Source of the DNA: an uncultured Oscillospiraceae bacterium
Lineage (GTDB): Bacteria; Bacillota; Clostridia; Oscillospirales; Oscillospiraceae
Assembly (NCBI GenBank): GCA_944387635.1
Contig: CALXFT010000026.1
Location: 1-32,078 of the forward strand
Length of the DNA: 32,078 nucleotides
Direction: 5' to 3'
In this document: positions 4,702 through 31,960 of the stretch, in pieces
How positions within the stretch are numbered: position 1 is the first letter of the stretch
Layout: every line of letters begins with the position of its first letter
Program-made: the position numbers and the translations under genes
Notes under the pieces: model-generated
What the model was told of the DNA's origin: nothing
The model's database searches: none
What the model saw: the letters and a program-made list of their open reading frames with translations, nothing else

Positions 4702-5889
4702 TTACAGAATATACTGCCGCTTGCCGTTCTGCAGGTCCCGCCACACCGGGGAGATGCTGCGCAGGTAGGCCACCACCTCGGGCGTCACCCGGAGAATGTG
4801 GTCGATCTCCTCGTCGGTGTTGTACTCGCTGAGGCTCAGGCGCAGGGAGCCGTGGGCCACGTCGTGGACCCGTCCAATGGCCAGCAGCACGTGGCTGGGG
4901 TCCAGGGAGCCGGAGGTGCAGGCGGAGCCGGAGGAGGCGCAGACCCCCTTGGCGTCCAGCAGGAGCAGCAGGCTCTCGCCTTCGATGCCCTCGAAGCAGA
5001 AGCTCACATTGCCGGGCAGCCGGTTCACCGGATCGCCGTTGAGGGCGCTGTGGGGAATCTGGGACAGGCCGGCGATGAGCTTGTCCCGCATGGCGCTTAC
5101 CCGGGCCATGTTGGCGTCCATGTTGGCGCAGGACTCCTCCAGGGCCGCGGCCATGCCGCAGATGCCGGGCAGGTTCTCGGTGCCGGCCCGCTTGCCCCGC
5201 TCCTGGGCGCCGCCCTCAATGATGTTGACCAGGGGGAAGCCCTTGCGGACGTACAGAGCGCCCACGCCCTTGGGGCCATGGAACTTGTGGCCCGAGAGGC
5301 TGAGCATGTCGATGTTCTGCTCCTTGACGTTGATGTGCAGGTGTCCCACCGCCTGAACCGCGTCGGTGTGGAAGGACACGCCGGCCTCCCTGCACACGGC
5401 GCCGATCTCGGCAATGGGCAGGATGGAGCCGATTTCGTTGTTGGCGTACATCGTGGTCACCAGGCAGGTGTCCGGGCGGATGGCCTCCTGAACCTGCCGG
5501 GCGGTGACGTTGTGGCCCTGCTTCACGTCCAGATAGGTAACTTCAAAGCCCTCCTTCTCCAGCTTCTGGAGGGTGTGAAGCACGGCATGGTGCTCGAAGG
5601 CCGTGGAGATAATGTGCCTCTTGTTCTTCCGGGCGCCGTAGCGGGCGGCAGAGAGAATGGCCTGGTTGTCGGCCTCGCTGCCGCCGGAGGTGAAAATGAT
5701 CTCCCGGGGCTCGCAGCCCAGGCACCGCGCCACCTTGGCCCGGGCGGCGTCCAGAGCCTCCTTGGCCTCCTGGCCCACGGAGTGCAGGGAGGAGGGATTG
5801 CCGTAGATGCCATTGAAATAGGGAACCATGGCGTCAATGGCCGTCTGGCTCATGGCGGTGGTGGCCGCGTTGTCCGCGTAAACGTGCAT
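4702..5889 (-). CDS. nifS: Cysteine desulfurase (NifS/IscS-type)
   Basis: This 395-residue PLP enzyme releases sulphur from cysteine for Fe-S assembly. The N-terminus is YADNAATTAMSQTAIDAM. The PLP lysine is K202 in SLSGHKFHGPKG, and the persulfide cysteine is C324 in SSGSACTSGSLDPSHVL. RAGTENLPG and HTDAVQAVG are also typical. The start codon follows a perfect AAGGAGG. It is the first gene of the nifS-iscU-rrf2 group. A strong promoter with a palindromic operator lies directly upstream, inside the 3' end of the neighbouring msrC-like gene. Confidence 0.96.
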   Translation of the reverse strand: MHVYADNAATTAMSQTAIDAMVPYFNGIYGNPSSLHSVGQEAKEALDAARAKVARCLGCEPREIIFTSGGSEADNQAILSAARYGARKNKRHIISTAFEHHAVLHTLQKLEKEGFEVTYLDVKQGHNVTARQVQEAIRPDTCLVTTMYANNEIGSILPIAEIGAVCREAGVSFHTDAVQAVGHLHINVKEQNIDMLSLSGHKFHGPKGVGALYVRKGFPLVNIIEGGAQERGKRAGTENLPGICGMAAALEESCANMDANMARVSAMRDKLIAGLSQIPHSALNGDPVNRLPGNVSFCFEGIEGESLLLLLDAKGVCASSGSACTSGSLDPSHVLLAIGRVHDVAHGSLRLSLSEYNTDEEIDHILRVTPEVVAYLRSISPVWRDLQNGKRQYIL

Positions 5890-19404: not shown

Positions 19405-20637
19405 TTATTCCTCCTTCGGCAGGCTCTGGATGTACTCGTGCATGGCCTCGGCCACCACCTTGCTGTGGGCCACGGCCTCCACCACGGTCCGGGCGCCATT
19501 GACCACGTCTCCGGAGGCGAAGATGCCCGGGCGGCTGGTCCGGCCCCGCTCGTCGGCCACCAAAAGCCCCCGGTTGTTGGCGTCCAGGCCGGTGGTGGTG
19601 GTGACGATGGTGTTCTGGGGACCCTGGCTGATGGAGATGATGATGCTGTCCGCCGGGTACAGCCGGTCCGTTCCCGGCACCTCCCGCAGGGAGCCGTCCT
19701 CCTGCTCCTCCACATCCCGGAAGATCACGCCCTGGTCCACGATCTCCACAGGCTTCTTGTTGTAGGCAAACTGGATGCCCTCCAGCTGGGCGTAGCTGAA
19801 CTCATACTGGCTGGCCGCCACCTTCTTGCTCAGGGAGAAGCAGGTGATCTCCTCGCTGCCCTTGCGCCGGGCGGTCCGGGCCACGTCCATGGCCGCGTTG
19901 CCCGCGCCGATGACGATGACCTGCTTGCCCAAACGGTACACGTCGGGGTTGTGCAGATAGTTGATGGCATAGTGTACGTTGCCGAAGGACTCGCCCTTGA
20001 TGTGCAGGGTGTTGGGCTTCCAGACGCCGGTGCCGATGAAGATGGCCTTGTAGCCGTCCCGGAACAGGTCGTCGATGCCGATGGCGCTGCCGATGCGGGT
20101 GTTGGGCCGGATCTTGATGCCCTTGAGCTCCAGGTGCCGGTACTGGATGTCATCCAGGACGGACTTTGGAAGCCGGAACTCCGGAATGCCGTAGCGCAGA
20201 ACGCCGCCGATCTGGTCGTTGCTCTCAAAGATCGTCACCTGATAGCCGTAGCGGGCCAGAAGAATGGCAATGGTGATGCCCGCCGGGCCGGAGCCGATGA
20301 TGGCGGCCTTGATGCCGTTGGAGGGGTGGGGTCCCTGGACCATCTTGGGGGCGTAGGTGCTGGAGATGTAGTGCTCGATGGTGGAAAAATGCACCGGCGC
20401 GCCTTTCCTTCCCAGGACGCAGTGACCCTCGCACTGATTTTCGTGGTTGCAGATCAGACTGCACACCGTGGTCAGAGGGTTGTTCTCAAACAGAAGCCGC
20501 CCCGCCTTGTCCAATTGGTTGCTCTTGAGCAGCCGGATGACCTCGGGGATGGGGGTGTTGATGGGGCAGCCCTTCTGGCACTGGGGATTCTTGCAGCCCA
20601 GGCAGCGGTTGGCCTCGTCCATTACATGAAGCGCCAT
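19405..20637 (-). CDS. GltD/NfnB/SudA-type NAD(P)-dependent FeS-flavoprotein
   Basis: The 410-residue stand-alone oxidoreductase resembles the glutamate synthase small subunit. The N-terminal Fe-S domain has C12, C15, C20, C24 (RCLGCKNPQCQKGCP) and C59, C63, C69, C73, a pattern for two [4Fe-4S] clusters. It is followed by the FAD site GSGPAG (115-120), YGIPEFRLPKSVL, and the NAD(P) site VIVIGAGNAAMDVARTA. FASGDVVNGARTVVEAVAHSK closes the FAD domain. No glutamate synthase large subunit is adjacent, so it more likely feeds electrons to or from another partner. It lies about 1.4 kb from a molybdenum hydroxylase whose own redox partner has a damaged nucleotide site. Confidence 0.92.
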   Translation of the reverse strand: MALHVMDEANRCLGCKNPQCQKGCPINTPIPEVIRLLKSNQLDKAGRLLFENNPLTTVCSLICNHENQCEGHCVLGRKGAPVHFSTIEHYISSTYAPKMVQGPHPSNGIKAAIIGSGPAGITIAILLARYGYQVTIFESNDQIGGVLRYGIPEFRLPKSVLDDIQYRHLELKGIKIRPNTRIGSAIGIDDLFRDGYKAIFIGTGVWKPNTLHIKGESFGNVHYAINYLHNPDVYRLGKQVIVIGAGNAAMDVARTARRKGSEEITCFSLSKKVAASQYEFSYAQLEGIQFAYNKKPVEIVDQGVIFRDVEEQEDGSLREVPGTDRLYPADSIIISISQGPQNTIVTTTTGLDANNRGLLVADERGRTSRPGIFASGDVVNGARTVVEAVAHSKVVAEAMHEYIQSLPKEE

Positions 20638-21443: not shown

Positions 21444-21490
21444 GCCGCCCCCGCTTCCGGTCTTGTCCGGGAGCGGGGGCGGCTTCGTTT
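21444..21490 (+). terminator. Rho-independent terminator
   Basis: A 17-bp stem with one mismatch (GCCGCCCCCGCTTCCGG, 21444-21460, with its complement at 21467-21483) is followed by TTCGTTTT. It immediately follows the small exported protein. The stretch from here to 21620 shows nothing recognisable. Confidence 0.85.
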
Positions 21491-21620: not shown

Positions 21621-21650
21621 TTGAAAACCGCCGTGCCGGCAAGGTACAAT
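21621..21650 (+). promoter_or_regulatory. Promoter of the 83-residue protein and mop
   Basis: TTGAAA (21621-21626) and TACAAT (21645-21650) with an 18-base spacer, about 50 bases upstream of the first start codon of the molybdenum hydroxylase locus. Confidence 0.6.
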
Positions 21651-21699
21651 AGTATTGGAACCACGTTTCCTCCATTCCAATGTCCGCGAGGTAGCCCGT

Positions 21700-21951
21700 A
21701 TGGAACAGCCCGTCTTTGAAATTTCCGCCCACGAAGTCACTGTAGAAGTGGTGGACGCCCGCACCGGCATCCGCTACCGCCGGCAGCTGCCCATTGAATA
21801 CTACGAGACAGCCAACGGTCTGGTGCTCCAGGGGGAAAACCTGGACGGCAGCGTTTCCCAGCTGGTGTTCTACTCGGACAGAGGCCTGGAGCGGCTTCAG
21901 GGCCTGACGGGAAAAGGCCCGGACGCGGACCCCTGCGGGTCCCACAAGTGA
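21700..21951 (+). CDS. Hypothetical 83-residue protein preceding mop
   Basis: The small protein begins MEQPVFEISAHEVTVEVVD and is predicted to be mostly beta strand (EVTVEVVDARTGIRYRRQLPI, GLVLQGENLDGSVSQLVF). It has no cysteine clusters (a single Cys near the C-terminus) and no signal peptide. GAGGTAG lies 8 bases upstream of the ATG at 21700. An earlier in-frame ATG at 21655 lacks a ribosome site and overlaps the promoter end. It is only 43 bases ahead of the molybdenum hydroxylase and probably co-transcribed. No known family is recognised, and it may be a locus-specific accessory protein. Confidence 0.72.
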   Translation: MEQPVFEISAHEVTVEVVDARTGIRYRRQLPIEYYETANGLVLQGENLDGSVSQLVFYSDRGLERLQGLTGKGPDADPCGSHK

Positions 21952-21994
21952 ACCTTCGACCACGTCCCCACCCAAGAAACAAGGAGGAGTTCCT

Positions 21995-24751
21995 ATGATT
22001 AAGAAAAATCTGGTTATCAACGGCGTCAGCCGCACCCTGCTGATTGATCCCAACGAAACCCTTGCTTCCGTCCTCCGGGAGCGGCTTCTGCTCACCGGCT
22101 GTAAGATCGGCTGCGGCGAAGGCCACTGCGGCGCCTGCAACGTCATTGTAGACGGCAAGGTCACCCGCTCCTGCATCGTAAAAATGAGCCGGATTCCGGA
22201 CGGCGCCCAGATCACCACCATCGAGGGCATCGGCACCATCTCCGACATGCACCCCCTGCAGGTGGCCTGGATGGCCCACGGCTGCGCCCAGTGCGGCTTC
22301 TGCTCCCCCGGCTTCATCATGAGCGCCAAGGTCCTTCTGGACAACAACCCCGCCCCCACCCGTGAGGAAGTCCGCGACTGGTTCCAGAAGAACCGGAACC
22401 TGTGCCGCTGCACCGGCTATAAGCCCCTGGTCGACGCGGTCATGGACGCCGCCCGGGTCATCCGCGGCGAAATCACCAAGGAAGACCTGATGTTCAAGCC
22501 CACCGGCGACTCCATCGTGGGTACCAAGTACATCCGCCCCTCCGCCGCCCAGAAGGTCACCGGCACCTGGGACTTCGGCGCCGACGACGCTCTGAAGATG
22601 CCCGAAGGCACCCTGCGTCTGGCCCTGGTCCAGGCCAAGGTCAGCCACGCCCTGATTAAGCGCGTGGACACCTCCGCCGCCGAGAAAATGCCCGGCGTCC
22701 ACCGGATCATCACCGCCAAGGACATTGTGGCCGCCGGCGGCAAGAACCGGATCAACGGCCTGGTCATGCTGCCCCTGAACAACAAGTGCGACGGCTGGGA
22801 CCGTCCGGTGCTGTGTGACGACAAGATCTTCCAGTACGGCGACGCCATTGCCATTGTGGCCGCCGACACCGAGGCCCATGCCCGGGCCGCCGCCGACGCC
22901 GTGGTGGTGGACATTGAGCAGCTGCCCGCCTACATGAACGCCATGGACGCCATTGCCGAGGACGCCATTGAGATCCATCCCGGCACCCCCAACGCCTACT
23001 ACGAGACCAACTGCATCAAGGGTCCCGACCTCGACTTTGACTCCGCCCCCAATATGGTAGAGATCGAGTCCTACTGTTCCCGTCAGCCCCACCTGCACCT
23101 GGAGCCCGACTGCGGCTACGCCTACATCGACGAAGACGGCATGGTCACTGTCCACTCCAAGTCCATCGGCATCCACCTGCACATGCCCATGATCGCCGAC
23201 GGCATCGGCGTGCCCATGGAGAAGCTGCGCCTGGTCCAGAACCACGCCGGCGGCACCTTCGGCTACAAGTTCTCCCCCACCAATGAGGCCATTCTGGGCG
23301 CCGCCGCCAAGATCATCGGCAAGCCCGTGTCCCTGGTCTTCAACCAGTACCAGAACATCACCTACACCGGCAAGCGCAGCCCGGCCTTCATGCACATCAA
23401 GCTGGCCGCCGACGAGAACGGCAAGCTGCTGGGCTTGTGGGGCAACAACTACATCGACCACGGCCCGTACTCCGAGTTCGGCGATCTGCTGACCCACCGG
23501 CTCAGCCAGTTCACCGGCGCGGGCTATCACATCCCCACCATCCGCAACAAGTCCACCACCGTCTTCACCAACCACGCCTGGGGCTCCGCCTTCCGGGCCT
23601 ACGGCTCTCCCCAGTCCTTCATGGGCTCCGAGATCGCCATTGACGTGCTGGCCGCCAAGATGGGCATGGACCCCTTCGATATCCGGGAGCTCAACTGCTA
23701 CAAGGAGTCCGAGCACTCCACCATTCCCACGGGCTACGCCCCCGACGTGTACTGCCTGGAGGAGATGTACAAGGTGGCCCGTCCCCTGTACGAGGCCAGC
23801 AAGAAGCGGGTGGCCGAGAAGAACGCCGCCTCCGACGGCCGGTATAAGTACGGCATCGGCGTGTCCTCCGGCGTGTACGGCTGCGGCCTGGACGGCGTGG
23901 ACGCCTCCCAGGCATACGCCGAGCTGAACCCCGACGGCACCGTCACCATGTACGCCTCCTGGGAGGATCACGGCCAGGGCGCCGACATGGGCGTGCTGGT
24001 CTCCGCTCACGAGACCCTGCGCCAGGCCGGCATCAAGCCCGAACAGATCCGCCTGGTCATGAACGATACCAAGATCACCCCCAACTCCGGCCCCGCCGGC
24101 GGCTCCCGCTCCCAGGTCATGTCCGGCAACGCCTGCCGTCTGGCCGCCGAGAACCTGCTGGCCGCCATGCGCAAGGAGGACGGCACCTACCGGACCTATG
24201 ACGAGATGAAGGCCGAGGGCATTGAGACCAAGGTCCAGGGCCAGTGGGTCACCACCTACTGCGCCGAGCATCCCGTGGATCAGGCTACCTCCCAGGGCGA
24301 GCCCTTCGCCACCTACATGTACACCCTGTTCCTGCCCGAGGTCCGCGTAGACACCCAGACCGGCAAGGTCACTGTGGAGAAGTTCACCTGCGTGGCCGAC
24401 GTAGGCACCATTATGAACAAGCTCCTGGTGGACGGCAACTTCTACGGCGGTCTGGCCCAGGGCATCGGCCTGGCCCTGACCGAGGACTTCGACGACCTGA
24501 GCAAGCACACCAGCCTGAAGAACTGCGGCATCCCCTACCCCAAGGACATTCCCGACGACATCGAGCTGCACTACGTCCAGACCTACCGGCCCAACGGCCC
24601 CTACGGCGCCGCCGGCTGCGGCGAGGCGCCCCTGGACGCCCCCCATCCCGCCATTCTGAACGCCATCTACAACGCCACCGGCGCCCGGATCACCCGTGTT
24701 CCGGCCCTGCCCGAGGTGGTCCTGGCGGCTCTGAAGGAGCTGGAGGCATAA
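21995..24751 (+). CDS. mop: Mop-type molybdenum hydroxylase (aldehyde oxidoreductase family)
   Basis: The 918-residue single-chain enzyme aligns along its whole length, from memory, with Desulfovibrio gigas aldehyde oxidoreductase (907 residues). A plant-type [2Fe-2S] cluster uses C40, C45, C48, C60. The second [2Fe-2S] uses C100, C103 (QCGFCSPG), C137, C139 (CRCTGYKPLVDAV). Then come the molybdopterin domains (GTFGYKFSPTNEA, SAFRAYGSPQSF, EDHGQGADMG, GPAGGSRSQVMSGNA) and the active-site glutamate E877 in GCGEAPL. There is no flavin domain, so electrons must leave through another protein. It would oxidise an aldehyde or hydroxylate a heterocycle with water in the cytosol. AAGGAGGAG precedes the ATG. 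Lys AAG and Gly GGC are used almost exclusively, suggesting high expression. Confidence 0.96.
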   Translation: MIKKNLVINGVSRTLLIDPNETLASVLRERLLLTGCKIGCGEGHCGACNVIVDGKVTRSCIVKMSRIPDGAQITTIEGIGTISDMHPLQVAWMAHGCAQCGFCSPGFIMSAKVLLDNNPAPTREEVRDWFQKNRNLCRCTGYKPLVDAVMDAARVIRGEITKEDLMFKPTGDSIVGTKYIRPSAAQKVTGTWDFGADDALKMPEGTLRLALVQAKVSHALIKRVDTSAAEKMPGVHRIITAKDIVAAGGKNRINGLVMLPLNNKCDGWDRPVLCDDKIFQYGDAIAIVAADTEAHARAAADAVVVDIEQLPAYMNAMDAIAEDAIEIHPGTPNAYYETNCIKGPDLDFDSAPNMVEIESYCSRQPHLHLEPDCGYAYIDEDGMVTVHSKSIGIHLHMPMIADGIGVPMEKLRLVQNHAGGTFGYKFSPTNEAILGAAAKIIGKPVSLVFNQYQNITYTGKRSPAFMHIKLAADENGKLLGLWGNNYIDHGPYSEFGDLLTHRLSQFTGAGYHIPTIRNKSTTVFTNHAWGSAFRAYGSPQSFMGSEIAIDVLAAKMGMDPFDIRELNCYKESEHSTIPTGYAPDVYCLEEMYKVARPLYEASKKRVAEKNAASDGRYKYGIGVSSGVYGCGLDGVDASQAYAELNPDGTVTMYASWEDHGQGADMGVLVSAHETLRQAGIKPEQIRLVMNDTKITPNSGPAGGSRSQVMSGNACRLAAENLLAAMRKEDGTYRTYDEMKAEGIETKVQGQWVTTYCAEHPVDQATSQGEPFATYMYTLFLPEVRVDTQTGKVTVEKFTCVADVGTIMNKLLVDGNFYGGLAQGIGLALTEDFDDLSKHTSLKNCGIPYPKDIPDDIELHYVQTYRPNGPYGAAGCGEAPLDAPHPAILNAIYNATGARITRVPALPEVVLAALKELEA

Positions 24752-24770
24752 GCACCTTTTCCAAACCGGC

Positions 24771-24830
24771 AAATGAGAGGCGGGCAACCGCCTCTCATTT
24801 TTCAAAAAAGGGGTCGAAAAAAGACCCCTT
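24771..24830 (+). terminator. Two consecutive hairpins after mop
   Basis: The first is a perfect 13-bp stem (AAATGAGAGGCGG, 24771-24783/24788-24800) with loop GCAA and the run ATTTTTC. The second is an 8-bp stem AAGGGGTC/GACCCCTT (24808-24815/24823-24830). The first is a good intrinsic terminator that should reduce read-through into the downstream block. The rest of the 383-base gap holds repeat B2. No convincing promoter was found in 24831-25134. Confidence 0.8.
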
Positions 24831-24923
24831 CTGTGATATGCTAAGGATACTCTGAATATATCGGCAAGCGCTGACAGCGAGAGATTTCGGCTCAGACGCG
24901 GATAATGGAGTCTGGAATTCATC

Positions 24924-25087
24924 ATACTGATTCTCTTTTAAAATCTTTAATCATTTCCGATTAAAGATTTTAATTTAGAGAATCATATGAGGCGGGAATA
25001 TGTGATTTTCTATTCCGAAAATCACATATTCGGCAGCGCCGCAAGGCGATGCCTTCTTGATTAAATATTTTTATCAAGAAATAGTAT
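24924..25087 (+). repeat. Dispersed intergenic repeat, module B, copy 2
   Basis: It starts ATACTGATTCTCTTTTAAAA, as at 3254, and ends TCAAGAAATAGTAT (25074-25087), as at 19282. The first hairpin pairs 24928-24935 with 24978-24985 and 24940-24952 with 24959-24971 (loop ATTTCC). A second perfect 14-bp hairpin pairs 24997-25010 with 25017-25030 (loop TATTCC). It separates mop from the redox gene that follows. It is AT-rich in an otherwise GC-rich region. Confidence 0.85.
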
Positions 25088-25134
25088 CAGAGCTGCCCAA
25101 GGTTCCCGCGGGCCAAACCGGAGGTGATCTGCCC

Positions 25135-27399
25135 ATGATCGAAGAACGCGTTTCCACCCACATCTACCGGCAGAAGCAGATGCTGACCAAGGAGGAGCTG
25201 GAGGCACGGGAGAGCCTGTGCGTCCACGAGCAGCCTCCCTACTGCAACGCCGCCTGTCCCCTGAAGCTGGATGTAAAGGCCATGACCGCCGCCATCGCCG
25301 CCGGAGATTTTGACCGGGCGCTGGGCCTGTACGAAAAGATCACTCCCTTCCCCCACCTGCTGGCCGCAGCCTGCGAGGCCCCCTGCGAGGCGGAATGCAA
25401 GCTGTGCGGCCTGGGGGAGGGCGTGTCCGTCCGGGCCCTGGAGTCCGCCGCCGTGACCTGGGGGACCAAGGCCAAAGGCCGCAGCCTCCTGCGCAAAAAG
25501 CCCACGAAGATCGGTATCTTCGGTGCGGACCTGATGACCGTGTTCCTGGCCGGAGAGCTTGCCAAAAAGCGCTACACCGTCAGCCTCTTCTGCGCCCAGT
25601 CCGGGCCGGAGGACCTGATGGCCCGCTGCATTCCGGACCAGGCCGAGGCCGTCCGGCAGGCCGCCGCCCGGACTCTGGCCGCCATGGACCTGGAGCTGTG
25701 CTGGAATACGGACCCGGCGGAGGAATACCGGCAGCGCGGTGAGGAATTCCGGATTCGGGCCGCCGCCTTTTCCGTGGCCCGGACCCTGTATCCGCAGATC
25801 GCGCCGGACCCGGCGGTTATGGTCAGCCGGGACCATGGGCTGATCACCGGCCCCGCCCAGGGTGTCCTGGACGCCGCCTTCGCCGCGAAAAAGGCCGCCC
25901 TCTCCGCCGACCGCATGGCCCAAAACTTAGACCCGGCCAACACCCGGGGCCAGGAGGGAAGCCTGGAGACCCGGCTCTACACCTCCCTGGAGGGCGTGGC
26001 CCCCTCCCGGCGGATACCCATTACCGACCAGGAATCCGCCATAGCCGAGGCCCGGCGGTGCATCCAGTGCCACTGCGACGAATGCGTCAAGGGCTGCGCC
26101 TACTTACAGCACTATCAGAAGTTCCCCCGGATTCTGACCAGGGAGATTTACAACAACGTCTCCATCATCATGGGCGACCATATGATGAACAAGCCCATCA
26201 ACGCCTGCGCCCTGTGCGGCCAGTGCAAGGTTCTGTGTCCCAACGGCTATGACATGGGCGAGATCTGCCGCATCGCTCGGGAGAACATGGTCTTCACGGG
26301 CAAAATGCCCCTGGCCCCCCACGAGTTCGCCCTGATGGACATGCTCTTTTCCAATGAGGAGGCCTTCCTGGCCCGGCCCCAGCCGGGGTTTGACCGGTGC
26401 CAATATGTCTTCTTCCCCGGCTGCCAGGCCACAGCCGTTGCCCCGGCCACAGTCCGGGCGGCCTATCGGGATCTATGCGCCCGGCTCCCCGGAGGCACAG
26501 CCCTGATGCTGGGCTGCTGCGGGGCCATCAGCCATTGGGCAGGCCGCTACGAACTGACGGACCAGACCCGAAGCTTTCTGCGCGAAGCCCTGGCCCGGCT
26601 GGGTGACCCGGTGATCATCGCCGGATGCCCCACCTGCAAACAGGAACTGGAATTTACCGGCCTGGAGGTCCGGGGCGTCTGGGAGATCCTGGAGCGGATC
26701 GGCCTTCCGGAAACCGCCGTGGCCAAGCCCCGGCCCGTGGCGCTTCACGACGCCTGCGGCGCCCGTGGAGATCCGGACACCCAGGCCAGCATCCGCCGGA
26801 TCGCCTCGGCTCTGGGCTGCCAGGTGGCGGACACCCCCTATTCCGGGGACCGGGCGCCCTGCTGCGGCTACGGCGGCCTGACCCAGTACACCAACCGGGA
26901 AGTGGCCAAAAAGATGACGGACCAGTGTCTTCAGCGGTCGGACCTGCCCTACTTAAGCTACTGCATGGCCTGCCGGGACCGGTTCGCCCGGGAGGGCCGG
27001 GAGTCCATGCACCTGCTGGAGCTGGTCTACGGCACCGCCGCGGACCACTGCCCGGACATCAGCGCCAAACGATGCAACCGGCTGGGCCTGAAGCAGCAGC
27101 TGGAAAAAGAGATCTGGAATCTGGAGGTTACGGAAATGGACCTGGGCTTCACCATTGAATACACCCCCGAGGCGGAAGCGCTTATGGACGACCGGATGAT
27201 CCTGAAGTCCGACGTGGCGGCCGTCTTCCAGAACCTGCGCCGGACCGGCGAGGCCATACTGGACAGCGAAACCGGCCTGTCCGTCACCCGCTCCCGTCAG
27301 GGCAACGTGACCTTCTGGGTCAAGTACCGGGAGACGGAAACCGGCTATCGGGTCTTCAGCGCCTACAGCCACCGCATGAAGGTGGTCGCCCGGAAGTAA
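25135..27399 (+). CDS. Multi-FeS 'pyridine nucleotide-disulfide oxidoreductase/dicluster' protein with CCG domains (DVU_1558-like)
   Basis: The 754-residue redox protein has a GltD-type N-terminal Fe-S domain (C29, C37, C41, C80, C84, C88, C91). A shortened, degenerate dinucleotide-binding region follows (about 125-300, IGIFGADLM where GxGxxG is expected). A ferredoxin-like dicluster region is at 309-368 (CIQCHCDECVKGC and CALCGQCKVLCP). Two CCG domains as in heterodisulfide reductase HdrB/LUD-type proteins follow (C430, CC461-462, C541, CC576-577). A roughly 85-residue C-terminal domain ends it. ATG 25135 was chosen for its perfect GGAGGTGATC site. An upstream in-frame start falls in the repeat. 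It is the likely electron carrier for Mop, as the order matches D. vulgaris DVU_1559-1558 by recall. Confidence 0.88.
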   Translation: MIEERVSTHIYRQKQMLTKEELEARESLCVHEQPPYCNAACPLKLDVKAMTAAIAAGDFDRALGLYEKITPFPHLLAAACEAPCEAECKLCGLGEGVSVRALESAAVTWGTKAKGRSLLRKKPTKIGIFGADLMTVFLAGELAKKRYTVSLFCAQSGPEDLMARCIPDQAEAVRQAAARTLAAMDLELCWNTDPAEEYRQRGEEFRIRAAAFSVARTLYPQIAPDPAVMVSRDHGLITGPAQGVLDAAFAAKKAALSADRMAQNLDPANTRGQEGSLETRLYTSLEGVAPSRRIPITDQESAIAEARRCIQCHCDECVKGCAYLQHYQKFPRILTREIYNNVSIIMGDHMMNKPINACALCGQCKVLCPNGYDMGEICRIARENMVFTGKMPLAPHEFALMDMLFSNEEAFLARPQPGFDRCQYVFFPGCQATAVAPATVRAAYRDLCARLPGGTALMLGCCGAISHWAGRYELTDQTRSFLREALARLGDPVIIAGCPTCKQELEFTGLEVRGVWEILERIGLPETAVAKPRPVALHDACGARGDPDTQASIRRIASALGCQVADTPYSGDRAPCCGYGGLTQYTNREVAKKMTDQCLQRSDLPYLSYCMACRDRFAREGRESMHLLELVYGTAADHCPDISAKRCNRLGLKQQLEKEIWNLEVTEMDLGFTIEYTPEAEALMDDRMILKSDVAAVFQNLRRTGEAILDSETGLSVTRSRQGNVTFWVKYRETETGYRVFSAYSHRMKVVARK

Positions 27400-27416
27400 A
27401 ACAAGGAGGAGATCCC

Positions 27417-27635
27417 ATGGCGGACAAAAACTACTACACCATCGACCCGGAGGGCAAGCTCACCTGCCTAAAATGCCGGTGCAAGCTGCAAAAGGACAAG
27501 GCCAAATTCCTCTACCTGGACAACGGCTTTCCCGTGGAGCTGCCGGTTTGCCCCCAGTGCGGCTTCGTCTACGTCCCCGAGGAGCTGGCTCTGGGCAAGG
27601 TTCTGGCGGTGGAGAAGGCGTTGGAGGACAAATGA
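27417..27635 (+). CDS. Small Cys-pair redox protein (DVU_1557-like)
   Basis: The 72-residue protein has a rubredoxin/zinc-ribbon-like arrangement: C17-x2-C20 (with C22) in LTCLKCRCKL and C45-x2-C48 in LPVCPQCGF. YVPEELALGKVLAVEKALEDK is a helical tail. Two CxxC knuckles about 25 residues apart can bind one iron or zinc. It begins 17 bases after the dicluster gene with AAGGAGGAG and overlaps the methyltransferase start. It probably shuttles electrons or donates metal within this locus. Confidence 0.85.
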   Translation: MADKNYYTIDPEGKLTCLKCRCKLQKDKAKFLYLDNGFPVELPVCPQCGFVYVPEELALGKVLAVEKALEDK

Positions 27636-28150
27636 TGAACGGACATCCCGGCGGGGAGGCCCACACCCGCTATCTGATCGAACTGGCCTTCCTGCCGCGG
27701 GGCAGCCGCTGGCTGGACATGGGAGCCGGAGACGGCTCCGCCCTGGCCCTGCTGCGTTCTCAGGGCTGCCAGGCCGTGGGCATCGACCTGGCCCCCAGAG
27801 GGCCGGACGTGGCGGAAGGGGACTTTCTGCGCGCCGGCTATGACGGCGGCAGCTTTGACGGAATCCTGTCCCAGTGCAGCTTTTTCCTCAGCGGAGACGT
27901 TGCCCAGGCTCTGAAAGAGGCGGGCCGTCTTCTGCGCAAGGGGGGCAAGCTGGTCTTCTCCGACGTGACGAAAGACGTAGTGGCCCTGCTGAGTCAGGTC
28001 CGGCAGGCGGGCTTCGCCGTCCGGCACCTGGAGGACCTGACCGAGCAGTGGCGGGAATATTACCTGGAGGCCCTGTGGCGGGAGGACAGCCCCTGCCTGC
28101 CCTCCGGGAAGGGATACAGCTATGTGCTGTTTGTCTGCGAAAGGATGTGA
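27632..28150 (+). CDS. Class I SAM-dependent methyltransferase (DVU_1556-like)
   Basis: The 172-residue Rossmann methyltransferase has motif I WLDMGAGDGS (D29 onwards) and the acidic residue D52 at the end of strand 2 (VGIDLAP). EGDFLRAGYDGGSFDGILS is motif II/III, and AQALKEAGRLLRKGGKLVFSDV is motif IV-V. This is the small 'type 11' form. Two adjacent ATG codons (27632, 27635) both fit; GGAGG lies 4 or 7 bases upstream. The start overlaps the previous gene as ATGA. The substrate is unknown. Its invariant company with a radical SAM enzyme suggests both modify the same small molecule or protein. Confidence 0.86.
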   Translation: MMNGHPGGEAHTRYLIELAFLPRGSRWLDMGAGDGSALALLRSQGCQAVGIDLAPRGPDVAEGDFLRAGYDGGSFDGILSQCSFFLSGDVAQALKEAGRLLRKGGKLVFSDVTKDVVALLSQVRQAGFAVRHLEDLTEQWREYYLEALWREDSPCLPSGKGYSYVLFVCERM

Positions 28151-28157
28151 AACCGTG

Positions 28158-28580
28158 GATCTGACCGAACGGATTCTGGAGCTGTCCCGGTACGGGTACT
28201 TCTGCTCCCAGATATTGGCGATTCTGCTGCTGGAGACCATTGGAGAGGAGAACCCCAAGCTGGTCCAGGCCATGGCGGGCCTGAACGGCGGCGTGGGCTA
28301 CTCCGGCGGGGTCTGCGGCTGCATGACCGGCGGCTGCTGCCTGATCTCCTACTTCACCGGCAAGAGCGGCGATACAGCCTATGACAGCCCCCATCACAAA
28401 AGCGCCCTGGGCGAATTCACCCGGTGGTTCACCGACGAGATGGAGCTGGAGCACATGAGCATCGACTGCCGGGACATCACCCGGGGCAACCCGGCCAAGC
28501 GGGTGGAGTACTGCCCGGAGATCATTGCCCAGACATACGAAAAATGCATGGAAATACTGGAAGAAAAGGGATTTTTGTAA
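28158..28580 (+). CDS. C_GCAxxG_C_C family protein (DVU_1555-like)
   Basis: The 140-residue Cys-rich protein has C17 (GYFCSQI), C54 and C56 (GGVCGCMTGGCC), C61/C62, C105, C120 and C131. This is the distribution of the C_GCAxxG_C_C family, proteins of unknown activity thought to bind metal or handle redox, often next to molybdenum or selenium enzymes and radical SAM genes. GLNGGVGYSGGVCGCM is the core motif. The GTG start at 28158 was chosen because AAGGATGTG lies just upstream and the family N-terminus (LTERILELSRYGYFCSQ) follows. The gap to the methyltransferase is only 7 bases. Confidence 0.88.
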   Translation, partial: DLTERILELSRYGYFCSQILAILLLETIGEENPKLVQAMAGLNGGVGYSGGVCGCMTGGCCLISYFTGKSGDTAYDSPHHKSALGEFTRWFTDEMELEHMSIDCRDITRGNPAKRVEYCPEIIAQTYEKCMEILEEKGFL

Positions 28581-29900
28581 ATGGAACTGGGAAAAACCGC
28601 CAGCGTCTGCCCGGTGTGCCTGAACCGGATTCCCGCCCGGAAGGTGGTGGGGGAAGACGGCAATCTGTATATGGAAAAACGATGCTGGGACCACGGCAGC
28701 TTCCGGACCCTGATCTGGGAGGGCTCCGCCGAGAGCTATCTGGCCTGGGGCGCCCAGGACCCGGGAGGCCCTGTGGTCCCTGTGGGCGCCGTGGACGTGG
28801 AGCGGGGCTGTCCCTATGACTGCGGTCTGTGCCGCGGCCATGAGCGCGACGGCTGCTGCGTGCTCCTGGAGCTGACCAACCGGTGCAATCTGCGCTGTCC
28901 GGTGTGCTTCGCCTCCGCGGGAGAGCAGCGTCCCCGGGACCTGTCCCTGGAGGAGATCCGCCGCCAGTACGACCTGCTCGTGGAGCGGGGCGGCTCCTTC
29001 AACATCCAGCTCTCCGGCGGCGAGCCCACTATGCGGGAGGATCTGCCCCGGATCATCGCCCTGGGCAGGGAGAAGGGCTTCACCTTCTTCCAGCTGAACA
29101 CCAACGGCCTGCGGCTGGCTCAGGAACCGGGCTATGCCGAAACCATGGCCAAGGCAGGGGTCAGCACCGTCTTTTTGCAGTTCGACGGCCTGGAGGACGG
29201 GATCTACCGGACCCTTCGGGGGGCAGACCTGCTGGAAACCAAGCTCCGGGCCATCGACGCCTGTGAGAAGGCCGGTCTGCCCGTGGTCCTGGTGCCAACC
29301 CTGGCCCCGGGCGTCAACGACCACGCCCTGGGGGACATCCTCCGCTTCTCCCTGGACCGCGCCCCCCACATCCGGGGGGTCCACATCCAGCCCATCTCCT
29401 ACTTCGGCCGCTGCGCCCTGGAGGCCCCGGAGATCCGGCTGACCATCCCAGGGGTCCTGCGGCGGATCGAGGCGCAGACCGGCGGCCTTATGAAGGCTTC
29501 GGACTTCGGCGGCGGCGGGGCCGAGAGTCCCTACTGCTCCTTCCACGCAAGCTATCTGCGCAGCAGCGGCGGCAGCCTGAAGGCCCTGCCCCGGCGCAGG
29601 AGCCAATGCTGCTGCGTCAAAAGCAGCGAGGCCCGGGACTATGTGTCCCAGCAGTGGAGCGGCAAAGCCGCCGGGGTGGACGGGGACCCGGACACCGGCT
29701 CCCTGGACGAATTTCTGCAGCGGACGGTGGAGAACACCTTCACCGTCTCCGGCATGGTCTTCCAGGACGCCTACAACCTGGACCTGGACCGACTGCGCCG
29801 GTGCTACATCTGCGAAGTGGACAGTGAACGGGGCATGGTCCCCTTCTGCGCCTACAACCTGACCGACATCCACGGCCGCGGCCTTTACAGAAGAACATGA
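28581..29900 (+). CDS. Cys-rich radical SAM enzyme (MJ0619/tetraether-synthase-like)
   Basis: A 439-residue radical SAM enzyme with the core motif C102-x3-C106-x2-C109 (TNRCNLRCPVCFASAG) and SAM-binding segments QLSGGEPTMRED and QLNTNGLRL. The N-terminal zinc- or Fe-S-binding block is characteristic of MJ0619-like proteins and archaeal tetraether synthase: C10/C13 (VCPVCLNRIPAR), C35 (KRCWDHGSF), C77/C81/C84 (GCPYDCGLCRGH). More cysteines follow at C319, CCC343-345, C408, C411 and C423 (CYICEVD), probably auxiliary clusters. By recall it belongs to the family named TrsS. It starts directly after the previous stop codon and overlaps the next gene. The chemistry may be C-C/C-S bond formation or methyl transfer, but this is unproven. 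Confidence 0.9.
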   Translation: MELGKTASVCPVCLNRIPARKVVGEDGNLYMEKRCWDHGSFRTLIWEGSAESYLAWGAQDPGGPVVPVGAVDVERGCPYDCGLCRGHERDGCCVLLELTNRCNLRCPVCFASAGEQRPRDLSLEEIRRQYDLLVERGGSFNIQLSGGEPTMREDLPRIIALGREKGFTFFQLNTNGLRLAQEPGYAETMAKAGVSTVFLQFDGLEDGIYRTLRGADLLETKLRAIDACEKAGLPVVLVPTLAPGVNDHALGDILRFSLDRAPHIRGVHIQPISYFGRCALEAPEIRLTIPGVLRRIEAQTGGLMKASDFGGGGAESPYCSFHASYLRSSGGSLKALPRRRSQCCCVKSSEARDYVSQQWSGKAAGVDGDPDTGSLDEFLQRTVENTFTVSGMVFQDAYNLDLDRLRRCYICEVDSERGMVPFCAYNLTDIHGRGLYRRT

Positions 29901-31105
29901 ATACGACGAAATTAGACGCCTGGATCTGCCAGACGGAAGGGATTCCCCGTCTGACCAGGGATGCGCTGCAAACCCTCCAGCTGGAAAAACTCAACGCGCT
30001 TCTGGCCCGTGCCAGCCGGCGGGGCGGACTCTACGCCGGTTATCCGGACCGCCTGTCCTCCCTGGAGCGGCTCCGGGAGCTGCCCTTCACCACCGCCGGG
30101 CAGTTGGGCGCCGCCCCCGGAAAGCTCCTGCTGACCTCCCAGTCCCAGGTCAGCCGGGTGATCTCCGGGGACACCTCCGGCACCACAGGCCCGGCCAAGC
30201 GGGTATTCTACACCGAAGGGGACCTGTCCCACACCGTAAGCTTCTTTGCCGCCGGGATCTCGGAAATGCTTCAGCCCGGGCAGCGCTGCCTCATCGCCTT
30301 CCCCTTCTCCGGCCCCTTCGGTCTGGGGGACCTGATCGCCAAGGCCGTGGAGCGGCTGGGGGCCGTGCCCATCCGGGCCGGCTTCGGCCAGAGCTGGGAA
30401 GCGCTTTCCCAGCTGGTGCGCGATGCCCGTCCCGACGCCTATATCGGCTTTCCCGTGCCTCTGCTGACCCTGGCCCGGCTCTATGGCGCGGACTTTCCCA
30501 TTCGCAAGGCCCTGGTCTCGGGAGACGCCTGTCCCAAGGGTGTTATGGAAACCTTACAGACCATACTGGGCGGCCCGCTCTATCCCCACTACGGCAGCCG
30601 GGAGTGCGGCCTGGGAGGTGCGGTGACCTGTCCGGCCCACGAAGGCATGCACATCCGGGAGAACCACATTCTGCCGGAGATCATCGACGAACACGGAAAC
30701 GTGCTCCCGGAGGGGAGATACGGAGAACTGGTGATCACCACCATCGGCCTGGAGGCCATGCCTCTGATCCGCTACCGCACGGGAGACTTCACCCGCCTCC
30801 TGTCCCCCTGCCCCTGCGGCGGCGTCAGCCGCCGGATCGACATGGTGTCCCGGCGCTCCGGCCCGGTGCCCATGGAGGACCTGGACAGCGCCCTGTTCCC
30901 CCTGGACTTTTTGGCAGACTACCGGGCGCAGCGGCGGGGGGAAGCCCTCCATCTGCAATGCGCGGTGCTGGAGCCGGGGAAGGGCGCGATTCTGGAAGCG
31001 GCGGCGTCGGCGTGCTGCCCCGGCCTGACCGTCCGCGTGGAGACCTTCCCCGCGGACCGGGCCCAGAGGCCCATGTACTTAGGCAAACGGTACTGCCCCG
31101 GCTGA
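29897..31105 (+). CDS. PaaK-like adenylate-forming enzyme (DVU_1553-like)
   Basis: The 402-residue AMP-forming enzyme resembles phenylacetate-CoA ligase. The phosphate loop SGTTGPAK is at 94-101, then LIAFPFSGPFGLGDL, ALVSGDACPKGV, YPHYGSRECGLGG (A5 motif) and PLIRYRTGDFTRL (A7/A8). The C-terminal lid is short and ends LGKRYCPG. It would activate a carboxylic acid as acyl-AMP, possibly onto CoA. It overlaps the radical SAM stop by 4 bases (ATGA), so the two are translationally coupled. Its association with an aldehyde oxidoreductase is suggestive, because Mop makes a carboxylate that such an enzyme could activate. Confidence 0.85.
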   Translation: MNTTKLDAWICQTEGIPRLTRDALQTLQLEKLNALLARASRRGGLYAGYPDRLSSLERLRELPFTTAGQLGAAPGKLLLTSQSQVSRVISGDTSGTTGPAKRVFYTEGDLSHTVSFFAAGISEMLQPGQRCLIAFPFSGPFGLGDLIAKAVERLGAVPIRAGFGQSWEALSQLVRDARPDAYIGFPVPLLTLARLYGADFPIRKALVSGDACPKGVMETLQTILGGPLYPHYGSRECGLGGAVTCPAHEGMHIRENHILPEIIDEHGNVLPEGRYGELVITTIGLEAMPLIRYRTGDFTRLLSPCPCGGVSRRIDMVSRRSGPVPMEDLDSALFPLDFLADYRAQRRGEALHLQCAVLEPGKGAILEAAASACCPGLTVRVETFPADRAQRPMYLGKRYCPG

Positions 31106-31135
31106 CCGCGGCTCAACCTGAGGAGGATACGCAAT

Positions 31136-31960
31136 ATGTTTTATGATCGTGTAAAAGAAAGCGCGGACTACATCCGTTCCAAAGCAGATATGAAGCTCGA
31201 TGTGGCCATCATCCTGGGCAGCGGTCTGGGCAATATGGTGGATATCATGGAGAACAAGCGGATCATTCCCTACAAGGAGGTCCCCAATTTCCCCCGGAGC
31301 TCCGTTGCGGGACACGCCGGCAACCTGGTCTTCGGCACCATCGGCCAGACCGGGATCATGGCGCTTCAGGGGCGTTTCCACTACTACGAAGGCTTCACCA
31401 TGAAGGAAACCGCCTATCCCGTGTATGTTATGAAGCTGCTGGGCATTGAGAACCTGATTGTCACCAACGCCTGCGGCGGCATAAATCCCGCCTTCGCGCC
31501 CGGAGACCTGATGATCATTGACGACTTCATCAACGCCGTTTCCACCAACCCTCTCCGCGGCGAAAACGACGAGCGGTTCGGTCCCCGTTTCCCCGACATG
31601 TCCGAGCCTTACAGCACCGTTCTGCGGGAAAAGGCGGAGAAGATCGCCAACGAGCTGGGCATCGAAGTGAAGCACGGCGTTTACACCATGTTCCAGGGTC
31701 CTTACTATGAGACCGCCGCTGAGATTCGGATGCTCAAGGCCGTGGGCAGTGACGCCGTCGGCATGTCCACCGTGCCCGAGACCATTGCGGCAAACTACGT
31801 CGGAATCAAGACCCTGGGCATCGCCTGCATCACCAACATGGCAACCGGCCTGCGCACCGGCAAGCACAGCCACGGGGAAGTGGTCGCCATGGCCGAGGAC
31901 TCCGGCAAGAAGCTGTGCGCCTGGATGGAAGCGCTGCTGAGGCAGTGGCATAATCATTAA
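31136..31960 (+). CDS. punA: Purine nucleoside phosphorylase (trimeric PNP-I type)
   Basis: The 274-residue enzyme cleaves purine nucleosides with phosphate to a base and (deoxy)ribose-1-phosphate. Motifs are the phosphate site LGSGLG (27-32), H60 in AGHAGN, GRFHYYEG (79-86), VTNACGGINP, and QGPYYETAAEIRML (E196 binds the base). MSTVPE and CITNMATGL (N234) indicate 6-oxopurine (inosine/guanosine) preference. GAGGAGG lies upstream, and it starts 30 bases after the PaaK-like gene on the same strand, so it is probably in the operon. Its stop codon TAA is the first part of a repeat element. Purine salvage at the end of a molybdenum hydroxylase locus is unusual. Confidence 0.96.
   Translation: MFYDRVKESADYIRSKADMKLDVAIILGSGLGNMVDIMENKRIIPYKEVPNFPRSSVAGHAGNLVFGTIGQTGIMALQGRFHYYEGFTMKETAYPVYVMKLLGIENLIVTNACGGINPAFAPGDLMIIDDFINAVSTNPLRGENDERFGPRFPDMSEPYSTVLREKAEKIANELGIEVKHGVYTMFQGPYYETAAEIRMLKAVGSDAVGMSTVPETIAANYVGIKTLGIACITNMATGLRTGKHSHGEVVAMAEDSGKKLCAWMEALLRQWHNH

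Follow-up and report, generated by a model that had tools for sequence, protein, structure and literature searches.

Layout of the gene block

We analysed a 32,078-nucleotide stretch of contig CALXFT010000026.1 (hereafter the window), from the 2.36 Mb, 106-contig assembly of an uncultured Oscillospiraceae bacterium (GCA_944387635.1). Nine plus-strand genes span positions 21655-31960 (Table 1), among them one for a flavin-free molybdenum aldehyde oxidoreductase (Mop). The Mop gene is preceded by that of a small conserved protein (U98) and followed by genes for a dicluster protein (Diclust), a DVU_1557-like four-Cys protein (D1557), a class I S-adenosylmethionine (SAM) methyltransferase (MTase), a C_GCAxxG_C_C protein (CGA), the radical SAM enzyme TrsS, a PaaK-like adenylating enzyme (the AMP enzyme) and a purine nucleoside phosphorylase. 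Mop and five partners score above the curated NCBIfam cut-offs, the methyltransferase scores below its own, and U98 has no family name. An original prediction, made from the letters of this DNA, had taken all nine genes as one block. Gene content and strand were confirmed, but the ninth gene falls outside the unit: the open reading frames (ORFs) of 81 loci hold no homologue of the phosphorylase other than the window's own, so we place the end of the unit at 31105. The unit proper is thus Mop plus seven neighbours (21655-31105), and the phosphorylase gene right after it is probably a chance neighbour. The same prediction held that the genes mostly overlap or lie less than 30 bases apart; most junctions do overlap or measure 0-43 bp, but the gap between Mop and Diclust is 305 or 383 bp, depending on the start codon.

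Table 1. Features in and around the Mop block of the window, with NCBIfam scores and curated cut-offs in bits.
Feature	Position	Strand	Remarks
Terminator-like hairpin	21444-21483		Consensus match only; upstream of the promoter-like site
Promoter-like site	21621-21650	+	Consensus match only; before the block
U98, small conserved protein, 98 aa	21655-21951	+	Likely start ATG at 21700
Mop, flavin-free molybdenum aldehyde oxidoreductase	21995-24751	+	NF045668, 1535.6 (cut-off 1100)
Diclust, dicluster protein	25057-27399	+	NF045663, 768.8 (cut-off 530); ATG start possibly at 25135
DVU_1557-like four-Cys protein	27417-27635	+	NF045645, 90.4 (cut-off 60)
Class I SAM methyltransferase, DVU_1556-like	27632-28150	+	NF045667, 104.8 (below cut-off 155)
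C_GCAxxG_C_C protein	28122-28580	+	NF045669, 148.2 (cut-off 103)
TrsS radical SAM enzyme, Cys-rich loop	28581-29900	+	NF045646, 570.2 (cut-off 490)
DVU_1553 PaaK-like adenylating (AMP) enzyme	29897-31105	+	NF045666, 318.9 (cut-off 300)
Purine nucleoside phosphorylase	31136-31960	+	Ninth gene, outside the unit

Conservation of gene order

Genome contigs were searched with the window TrsS, which gave 79 loci (best 80 of 120 relatives, a choice that over-represents close ones). We then turned the window proteins into profiles and ran these on the ORFs of the window and of 81 loci, where they matched Mop 65 times, Diclust 71, DVU_1557 68, the methyltransferase 71, the C_GCAxxG protein 66 and the AMP enzyme 72. 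Exactly the order U98>Mop>Diclust>D1557>MTase>CGA>TrsS>AMP is found in 19 of a later set of 120 TrsS-bearing loci and the same order minus U98 in 14; many others are truncated or extended. This order recurs in Clostridia, Chloroflexi, spirochaetes (with changes) and sulfate reducers, including Bilophila and Desulfovibrio gigas. The D. vulgaris order DVU_1559-1553, which the original prediction had cited, fits the NCBIfam family names, and D. gigas is where we saw it at genome level. A MocA-like nucleotidyl transferase and an XdhC-type factor stand beside the block in many other loci; the window block itself has neither, and both lie on another contig (C30) of the window genome. On that contig a single minus-strand ORF (L169:7736-9865) encodes a DVU_1551-type NTP (nucleoside triphosphate) transferase followed by a ModE-like domain.

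Co-occurrence of Mop and TrsS

We then compared the presence of Mop and TrsS across genomes. Among 299 Bacillota, the window genome included, Mop scores above its cut-off in 19, TrsS in 17 and both in 16 (Fisher p 1e-22). Among 150 Desulfovibrionales, where Mop was searched with the N-terminal 206 residues of the D. gigas protein (E up to 1e-50), the counts are 91, 86 and 85 (p 2e-33), and across the phylum Desulfobacterota (297 genomes) TrsS occurs in 33, Mop in 26 and both in 25 (p 2e-28). The original prediction had pointed to a neighbourhood search for Mop together with the block genes, and in ours both order and co-occurrence recur. Because the order is conserved across phyla and Mop and TrsS co-occur in all three samples, the proposal that Mop and its neighbours form one functional unit is strongly supported by these comparisons and the unit and its gene order directly so, despite Mop without TrsS in at least two genomes, G099 and G327, that we return to below.

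The discordant genomes were followed up individually. In the Bacillota, the TrsS-only genome G102 has its Mop cut at a contig end; of the Mop-only genomes, G098 has a TrsS cut at a contig end (469.5 bits), the Mop of G109 runs to a contig end, and G233 carries two Mops, each on a short contig (7.7 and 6.0 kb): after one of them comes Diclust, up to the contig end, and beside the other about 2.4 kb is free of block genes. Six Desulfovibrionales are Mop-only: G457 and G468 do have TrsS in the fetched DNA, G401, G403 and G405 are represented by contigs of 3.7-7.5 kb, and the sixth is G327. The TrsS-only G470, which starts at the edge of a contig, has no match to PF02738, the molybdenum hydroxylase family. 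In the Desulfobacterota sample, both Mops of the Mop-only G706 are cut by contig ends, and the TrsS-only genomes are G575 (a Mop fragment beside TrsS), G718 (a 4.9 kb contig), G547, G579, G595, G601, G621 and G679. As a paralogue control, scoring up to two candidates in each genome, we took the 28 Bacillota (G099 among them) and 12 Desulfobacterota genomes whose only Mop-family match is below the cut-off; TrsS is above its cut-off in G102 and G575 alone, where the Mop beside TrsS is cut by a contig end. For 17 scan loci without a full Mop, a whole-genome search recovered Mop in 14, either above the cut-off or as a large fragment; L011 had no match, L015 a C-terminal fragment and the Geobacter-like L067 paralogues only. 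In the same search (26 genomes in all), no Mop above the cut-off turned up in seven outgroup (Tes-like) genomes.

The block in Desulfovibrio gigas

The window Mop has two [2Fe-2S] domains and the Mo domains, no FAD (flavin adenine dinucleotide) domain, and a Glu aligned with Glu869 of D. gigas; it scores 1165 bits against the D. gigas structures 1sij/1vlb and 1178 bits against 1dgj. One sampled genome (G417) encodes the D. gigas Mop N-terminus with 100% identity over 206 residues, and the gene order at its locus is Mop>Diclust>D1557>MTase>CGA>TrsS>AMP>XdhC. Thus, the native, crystallised D. gigas Mop comes from a cell that carries the block. Since 1995 this enzyme has served as a structural model for molybdenum hydroxylases, and the sections covered of two papers leave its natural role and partner unsettled, with flavodoxin proposed (PMC3877041, PMC10223205). 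As reported in the sections covered of Marangon et al. (2013; PMC3877041), the native enzyme holds a cytidine-dinucleotide pyranopterin with an oxo rather than a sulfido ligand, its activation is set by the oxidation state of the dithiolene, most batches are fully active while dithionite plus sulfide revives inactive ones, and no extra cofactor modification is described. The original prediction had offered a modified cofactor needed by Mop as one purpose of the block; since D. gigas has the block, yet its native cofactor is reported there as ordinary, this proposal is weakened rather than eliminated.

Core genes without Mop

Accessory genes without any molybdenum hydroxylase, which the original prediction had held would speak against its link, do occur in part. 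Seven Desulfobacterota genomes have core genes and no Mop: in G512, G547, G579, G601 and G679 no PF02738 molybdenum hydroxylase was found, so that in this one lineage the core is directly seen without such enzymes, while G595 and G621 have several PF02738 proteins, none listed as Mop. All seven match the AFOR-type aldehyde oxidoreductase family (G579 through a fragment), as do many Mop genomes. The Mop-less loci (L144-L150) hold weak D1557-like matches, the methyltransferase, TrsS (broken in L144), the AMP enzyme (not in L145) and split or partial Diclust-like proteins, with no Mop, NTP transferase or XdhC within the stretches examined. Near the core, L145 and L150 have 2-hydroxyacyl-CoA dehydratase-like proteins (below cut-off; CoA, coenzyme A) and an acyl-CoA dehydratase activase, and L147 and L149 have putative TRAP transporter-like proteins, so labelled from their sequences. 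AFOR-type genes adjoin the core in L046, L052 (with Mop elsewhere in the genome) and L067.

In a midpoint-rooted TrsS tree of 82 rows, built with the Cys loop removed, a branch with an SH-aLRT (approximate likelihood ratio) support of 95 separates 64 rows, which include all loci with Mop, from 18 rows, among them the Mop-less rows tested and the Tes-like rows. The five Mop-less rows placed in the tree (L145-L148 and L150) group at 98, outside the Mop-linked clade; within that clade, two of the 64 rows, L067 and L151, belong to genomes that lack a Mop above the cut-off. Together, the Mop-less lineage and the AFOR-adjacent cores suggest that the core may be older than, or independent of, Mop.

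TrsS resembles tetraether synthase

The best PDB match of TrsS is 7tol, the tetraether synthase Tes/GDGT-MAS (427.7 bits with a profile); against the Tes family the window TrsS scores 325.8 bits, below the Tes cut-off of 450. The Tes-type metal ligands are present in 33/33 TrsS rows and the Met ligand (M392) in 32/33. As this Met is kept, we rejected the idea that the Cys-rich loop substitutes for the labile Met ligand of Tes. At the position of Tes Tyr459 the window has Glu412, and a Tyr is found in none of the 33 TrsS rows and in 5/5 archaeal Tes-like rows.

A cysteine desulfurase-like gene (CysD) lies directly before TrsS in 12 loci, 10 of which have at least seven loop Cys; L054 and L059 combine CysD with few Cys, and L068 has many Cys with no CysD found. 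Each of the two traits, CysD adjacency and loop expansion, changes 4 times on the tree; with 3 independent pairs their link does not reach significance, and we dropped it. CC or CxC motifs also occur in three of the four parsed other outgroup (Mss-like) rows. Some loops are extreme: in L057 (9782-11566) and L065, TrsS carries a tandem Cys-Cys repeat array with as many as 19 Cys, which forms a low-complexity insert in the region of the auxiliary cluster. In several loci a small gene of no known family (S105; L059:9639-9953) sits between the desulfurase-like gene and TrsS. A minus-strand ORF of the window (4702-5889), some 23 kb from TrsS, scores 415 bits against a profile of the desulfurase-like genes that precede TrsS.

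Selenocysteine-containing TrsS was not found: the window ORF has no in-frame TGA, and there are none among the matches listed in the three genome samples, where the sole stop inside a listed TrsS match (G309) is at the gene end. The TrsS of G512 looks frameshifted. We also set aside pterin methylation by TrsS, as the 'HMPTM zinc ribbon' label in Pfam seems to trace to a pterin-methylase assignment of MJ0619, which the Tes authors were unable to corroborate, according to the sections covered of their paper (PMC9433317). A single TrsS serving three Mops in Sporomusa was dropped, since the same genome also has the TrsS locus L064. Two or three Mop N-terminal matches against one TrsS match do occur in G026, G418, G438, G440, G389 and G369, some of the extra matches being weak or short; several Mops per TrsS argue that TrsS is no fixed Mop subunit.

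Partner proteins and flanking sequence

The original prediction had also proposed that the block supplies or recycles electrons for Mop, and judged by sequence this is plausible for part of it. Diclust has, by Pfam, a DPD-II FeS domain, a degenerate flavin domain, an HdrC-like dicluster and two HdrB-like CCG motifs. The CCG ligands (two C-CC-CxxC motifs) are kept in 51/51 rows and a GxGxxG pattern in 31/51, the window not among them. The four Cys of the DVU_1557-like protein are kept in 59 or 60 of 60 rows, and in L113 and L114 this protein and Diclust are a single ORF. The predicted fold of the C_GCAxxG_C_C protein resembles, along most of the chain, the split-Soret cytochrome c iron-centre domain (1h21). 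A divergent minus-strand gene (19405-20637), for a flavoprotein like the glutamate synthase small subunit, was considered as a source of the flavin partner that the degenerate Diclust lacks, and rejected; it has no match above 150 bits in the other loci listed.

The window methyltransferase, despite its score, occupies the same block position and belongs to the same profile family as its counterparts in other loci, and its C85 is invariant (57/57 and 7/7 rows). In two spirochaete loci (L063 and L066) methyltransferase and AMP enzyme are a single ORF. The best PDB match of the AMP enzyme is PaaK (2y27). PaaK-type CoA ligases carry a hinge and a catalytic Lys in their C-terminal domain. The AMP enzyme keeps the N-domain motifs, and its C-domain is degenerate: no C-terminal position is well conserved in 61 rows, the ORF stops early in L070, L113 and L130, and the window protein lacks the C-domain features of a PaaK-type CoA ligase. 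U98 has no NCBIfam or Pfam match, and its predicted structure (AF2, mean confidence, pLDDT, 84.8) has no PDB fold match at E <=0.001. It is nevertheless conserved, with profile matches to 42 ORFs, and in a 41-row alignment its C-terminal Cys/His tail is mostly conserved.

At the DNA level, the counts of both promoter-like and terminator-like patterns in the window are about the shuffle mean, and no Rfam family matches the window at its gathering score.

A proposed role for the block

Our preferred explanation, to which we give a probability of roughly 40%, is a single modular unit in which Mop, an HdrBC-like redox relay and a TrsS/methyltransferase/adenylation module act together on a diffusible metabolite, without permanent change to the Mo cofactor. 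Mop would oxidise an aldehyde at its Mo site, and electrons would pass through D1557 or the C_GCAxxG_C_C iron protein to the HdrBC-like Diclust. The MocA-like nucleotidyl transferase and XdhC-type factor would build and insert the cytidine-type cofactor. TrsS would form a substrate radical through 5'-deoxyadenosyl and catch it on the auxiliary (C-) cluster, as in Tes, giving a C-C or C-S bond, and the methyltransferase and AMP enzyme would methylate and adenylate the same molecule. We infer that the module makes or transforms a small molecule, perhaps sulfur-bearing, with which Mop and the relay would react or trade electrons. A metabolite is favoured over a permanent cofactor change because the D. 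gigas cofactor is ordinary in the sections covered of PMC3877041 and core genes occur in five genomes in which no PF02738 protein was found.

Several points weigh against this explanation. The module has no known substrate or product. The C-S idea draws on homology to Tes and on the Cys-rich loop, whose motif types recur in three of four outgroup rows, and, with 3 independent pairs, the tree gives no significance to the sulfur link with the adjoining desulfurase-like gene. A role in maturation would explain the MocA-like and XdhC genes just as well. In vitro, D. gigas Mop is active, so that a need for partners is not demonstrated (PMC3877041, in the sections covered). Among genomes, G327 (L115 and L172) is a clean exception, with Mop, long block-free flanks and no TrsS; G099 has a Mop fragment (1056 bits, residues 248-904 of 905, cut by a contig start) with 8.9 kb of block-free DNA downstream and no TrsS match; and G233 probably has Mop without TrsS, both its Mops being on short contigs. 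Finally, the curators may have had the neighbourhood in mind when they chose the Mop cut-off, which would inflate the co-occurrence.

Alternatively, the radical SAM, methyltransferase and adenylating enzymes could serve Mop maturation by installing or restoring a labile feature of the Mo site, a ligand or the dithiolene state, that is lost in purification. The MocA-like and XdhC-type genes of many loci, the desulfurase-like gene immediately 5' of TrsS in 12 loci, and the dependence of D. gigas activity on the dithiolene state, with rescue by dithionite plus sulfide, are all consistent with this. On the other side stand the ordinary cofactor and full activity of most native batches (both from the sections covered of PMC3877041) and core genes where no PF02738 protein was found, and on balance we consider maturation unlikely, if a serious competitor. 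A catabolic pathway is similarly doubtful. Here, Mop would oxidise an aldehyde, the PaaK-like enzyme would adenylate the acid, and TrsS and the methyltransferase would work on the carbon skeleton. The AFOR-type genes beside three cores, the dehydratase-like proteins with activase in L145/L150, the transporter-like proteins in L147/L149 and the joined AMP enzyme and methyltransferase fit such a pathway; against it, no PaaK C-domain is conserved in the AMP enzyme, which makes CoA thioester formation doubtful, and the neighbours differ among Mop-less loci.

A more specific proposal, which we think improbable, is that the module makes a sulfur-bearing private coenzyme, by Tes-type radical capture fed from the Cys loop, which Mop would reduce and whose disulfide the HdrB-like Diclust would recycle. 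The sulfur idea combines the loop and the neighbouring desulfurase-like gene with the S-C intermediate described for the Tes mechanism (PMC9433317, in the sections covered), and is only a lead; if the proposal is true, a model enzyme of 40 years' standing has a private coenzyme that was overlooked. That TrsS is a bacterial synthase of membrane-spanning lipids or tetraethers is highly improbable even with Tes/GDGT-MAS as its nearest solved structure and every metal ligand conserved, as Tyr459, completely conserved across archaeal Tes homologues according to the sections covered of PMC9433317, is never a Tyr in TrsS, whose genomic link is to an aldehyde oxidoreductase.

The families of the block are already named at NCBI. 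A 2026 review (PMC13188914) lists TrsS, in the part covered, with credit to Haft and Tolstoy (2025, mSystems); we found no functional study of the DVU155x genes or TrsS in a literature search whose scope did not extend to that 2025 paper. The D. gigas link, the Mop-less class and the analysis of TrsS features come from the present work, with prior publication of parts possible. Collectively, the genome evidence ties Mop to a radical SAM/methyltransferase/adenylation module in most Mop genomes sampled. The old question of Mop's natural role thereby becomes testable in genetically tractable Desulfovibrio, and the answer could reveal the function of a TrsS-type enzyme.

Comparison with known systems

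The window block corresponds to the NCBIfam set DVU_1551-DVU_1559 plus TrsS (NF045646) in Mop and five partners, and differs from it in the sub-cut-off methyltransferase, the unnamed U98 at the 5' end, the missing NTP transferase and XdhC, and a TrsS without TGA. The D. gigas locus shares the Mop family and the downstream gene order; there, XdhC is directly downstream, whereas the window genome has XdhC and the NTP transferase on another contig, and the D. gigas Diclust has the GxGxxG pattern that the window Diclust lacks. With Tes/GDGT-MAS (7tol, 7tom), TrsS has in common the rubredoxin-like site, the N-cluster with its His, the radical SAM cluster, the C-cluster Cys and the position of the Met ligand, a ligand conservation that is directly supported; unlike Tes, it lacks Tyr459 and has a Cys-rich loop and a Mop neighbourhood. 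Diclust shares a dicluster and two C-CC-CxxC motifs with HdrBC heterodisulfide reductase modules, but carries these in one protein with a DPD-II domain and a flavin domain that is often degenerate. The tandem molybdopterin cytosine dinucleotide (MCD) aldehyde oxidoreductase sets of C. ljungdahlii (PMC5640608) were compared by description only: in the sections covered, they likewise combine an aldehyde oxidoreductase, a fused FAD/CCG protein, a four-Cys protein and a C_GCAxxG_C_C protein, but the published list has no radical SAM, methyltransferase or adenylating gene.

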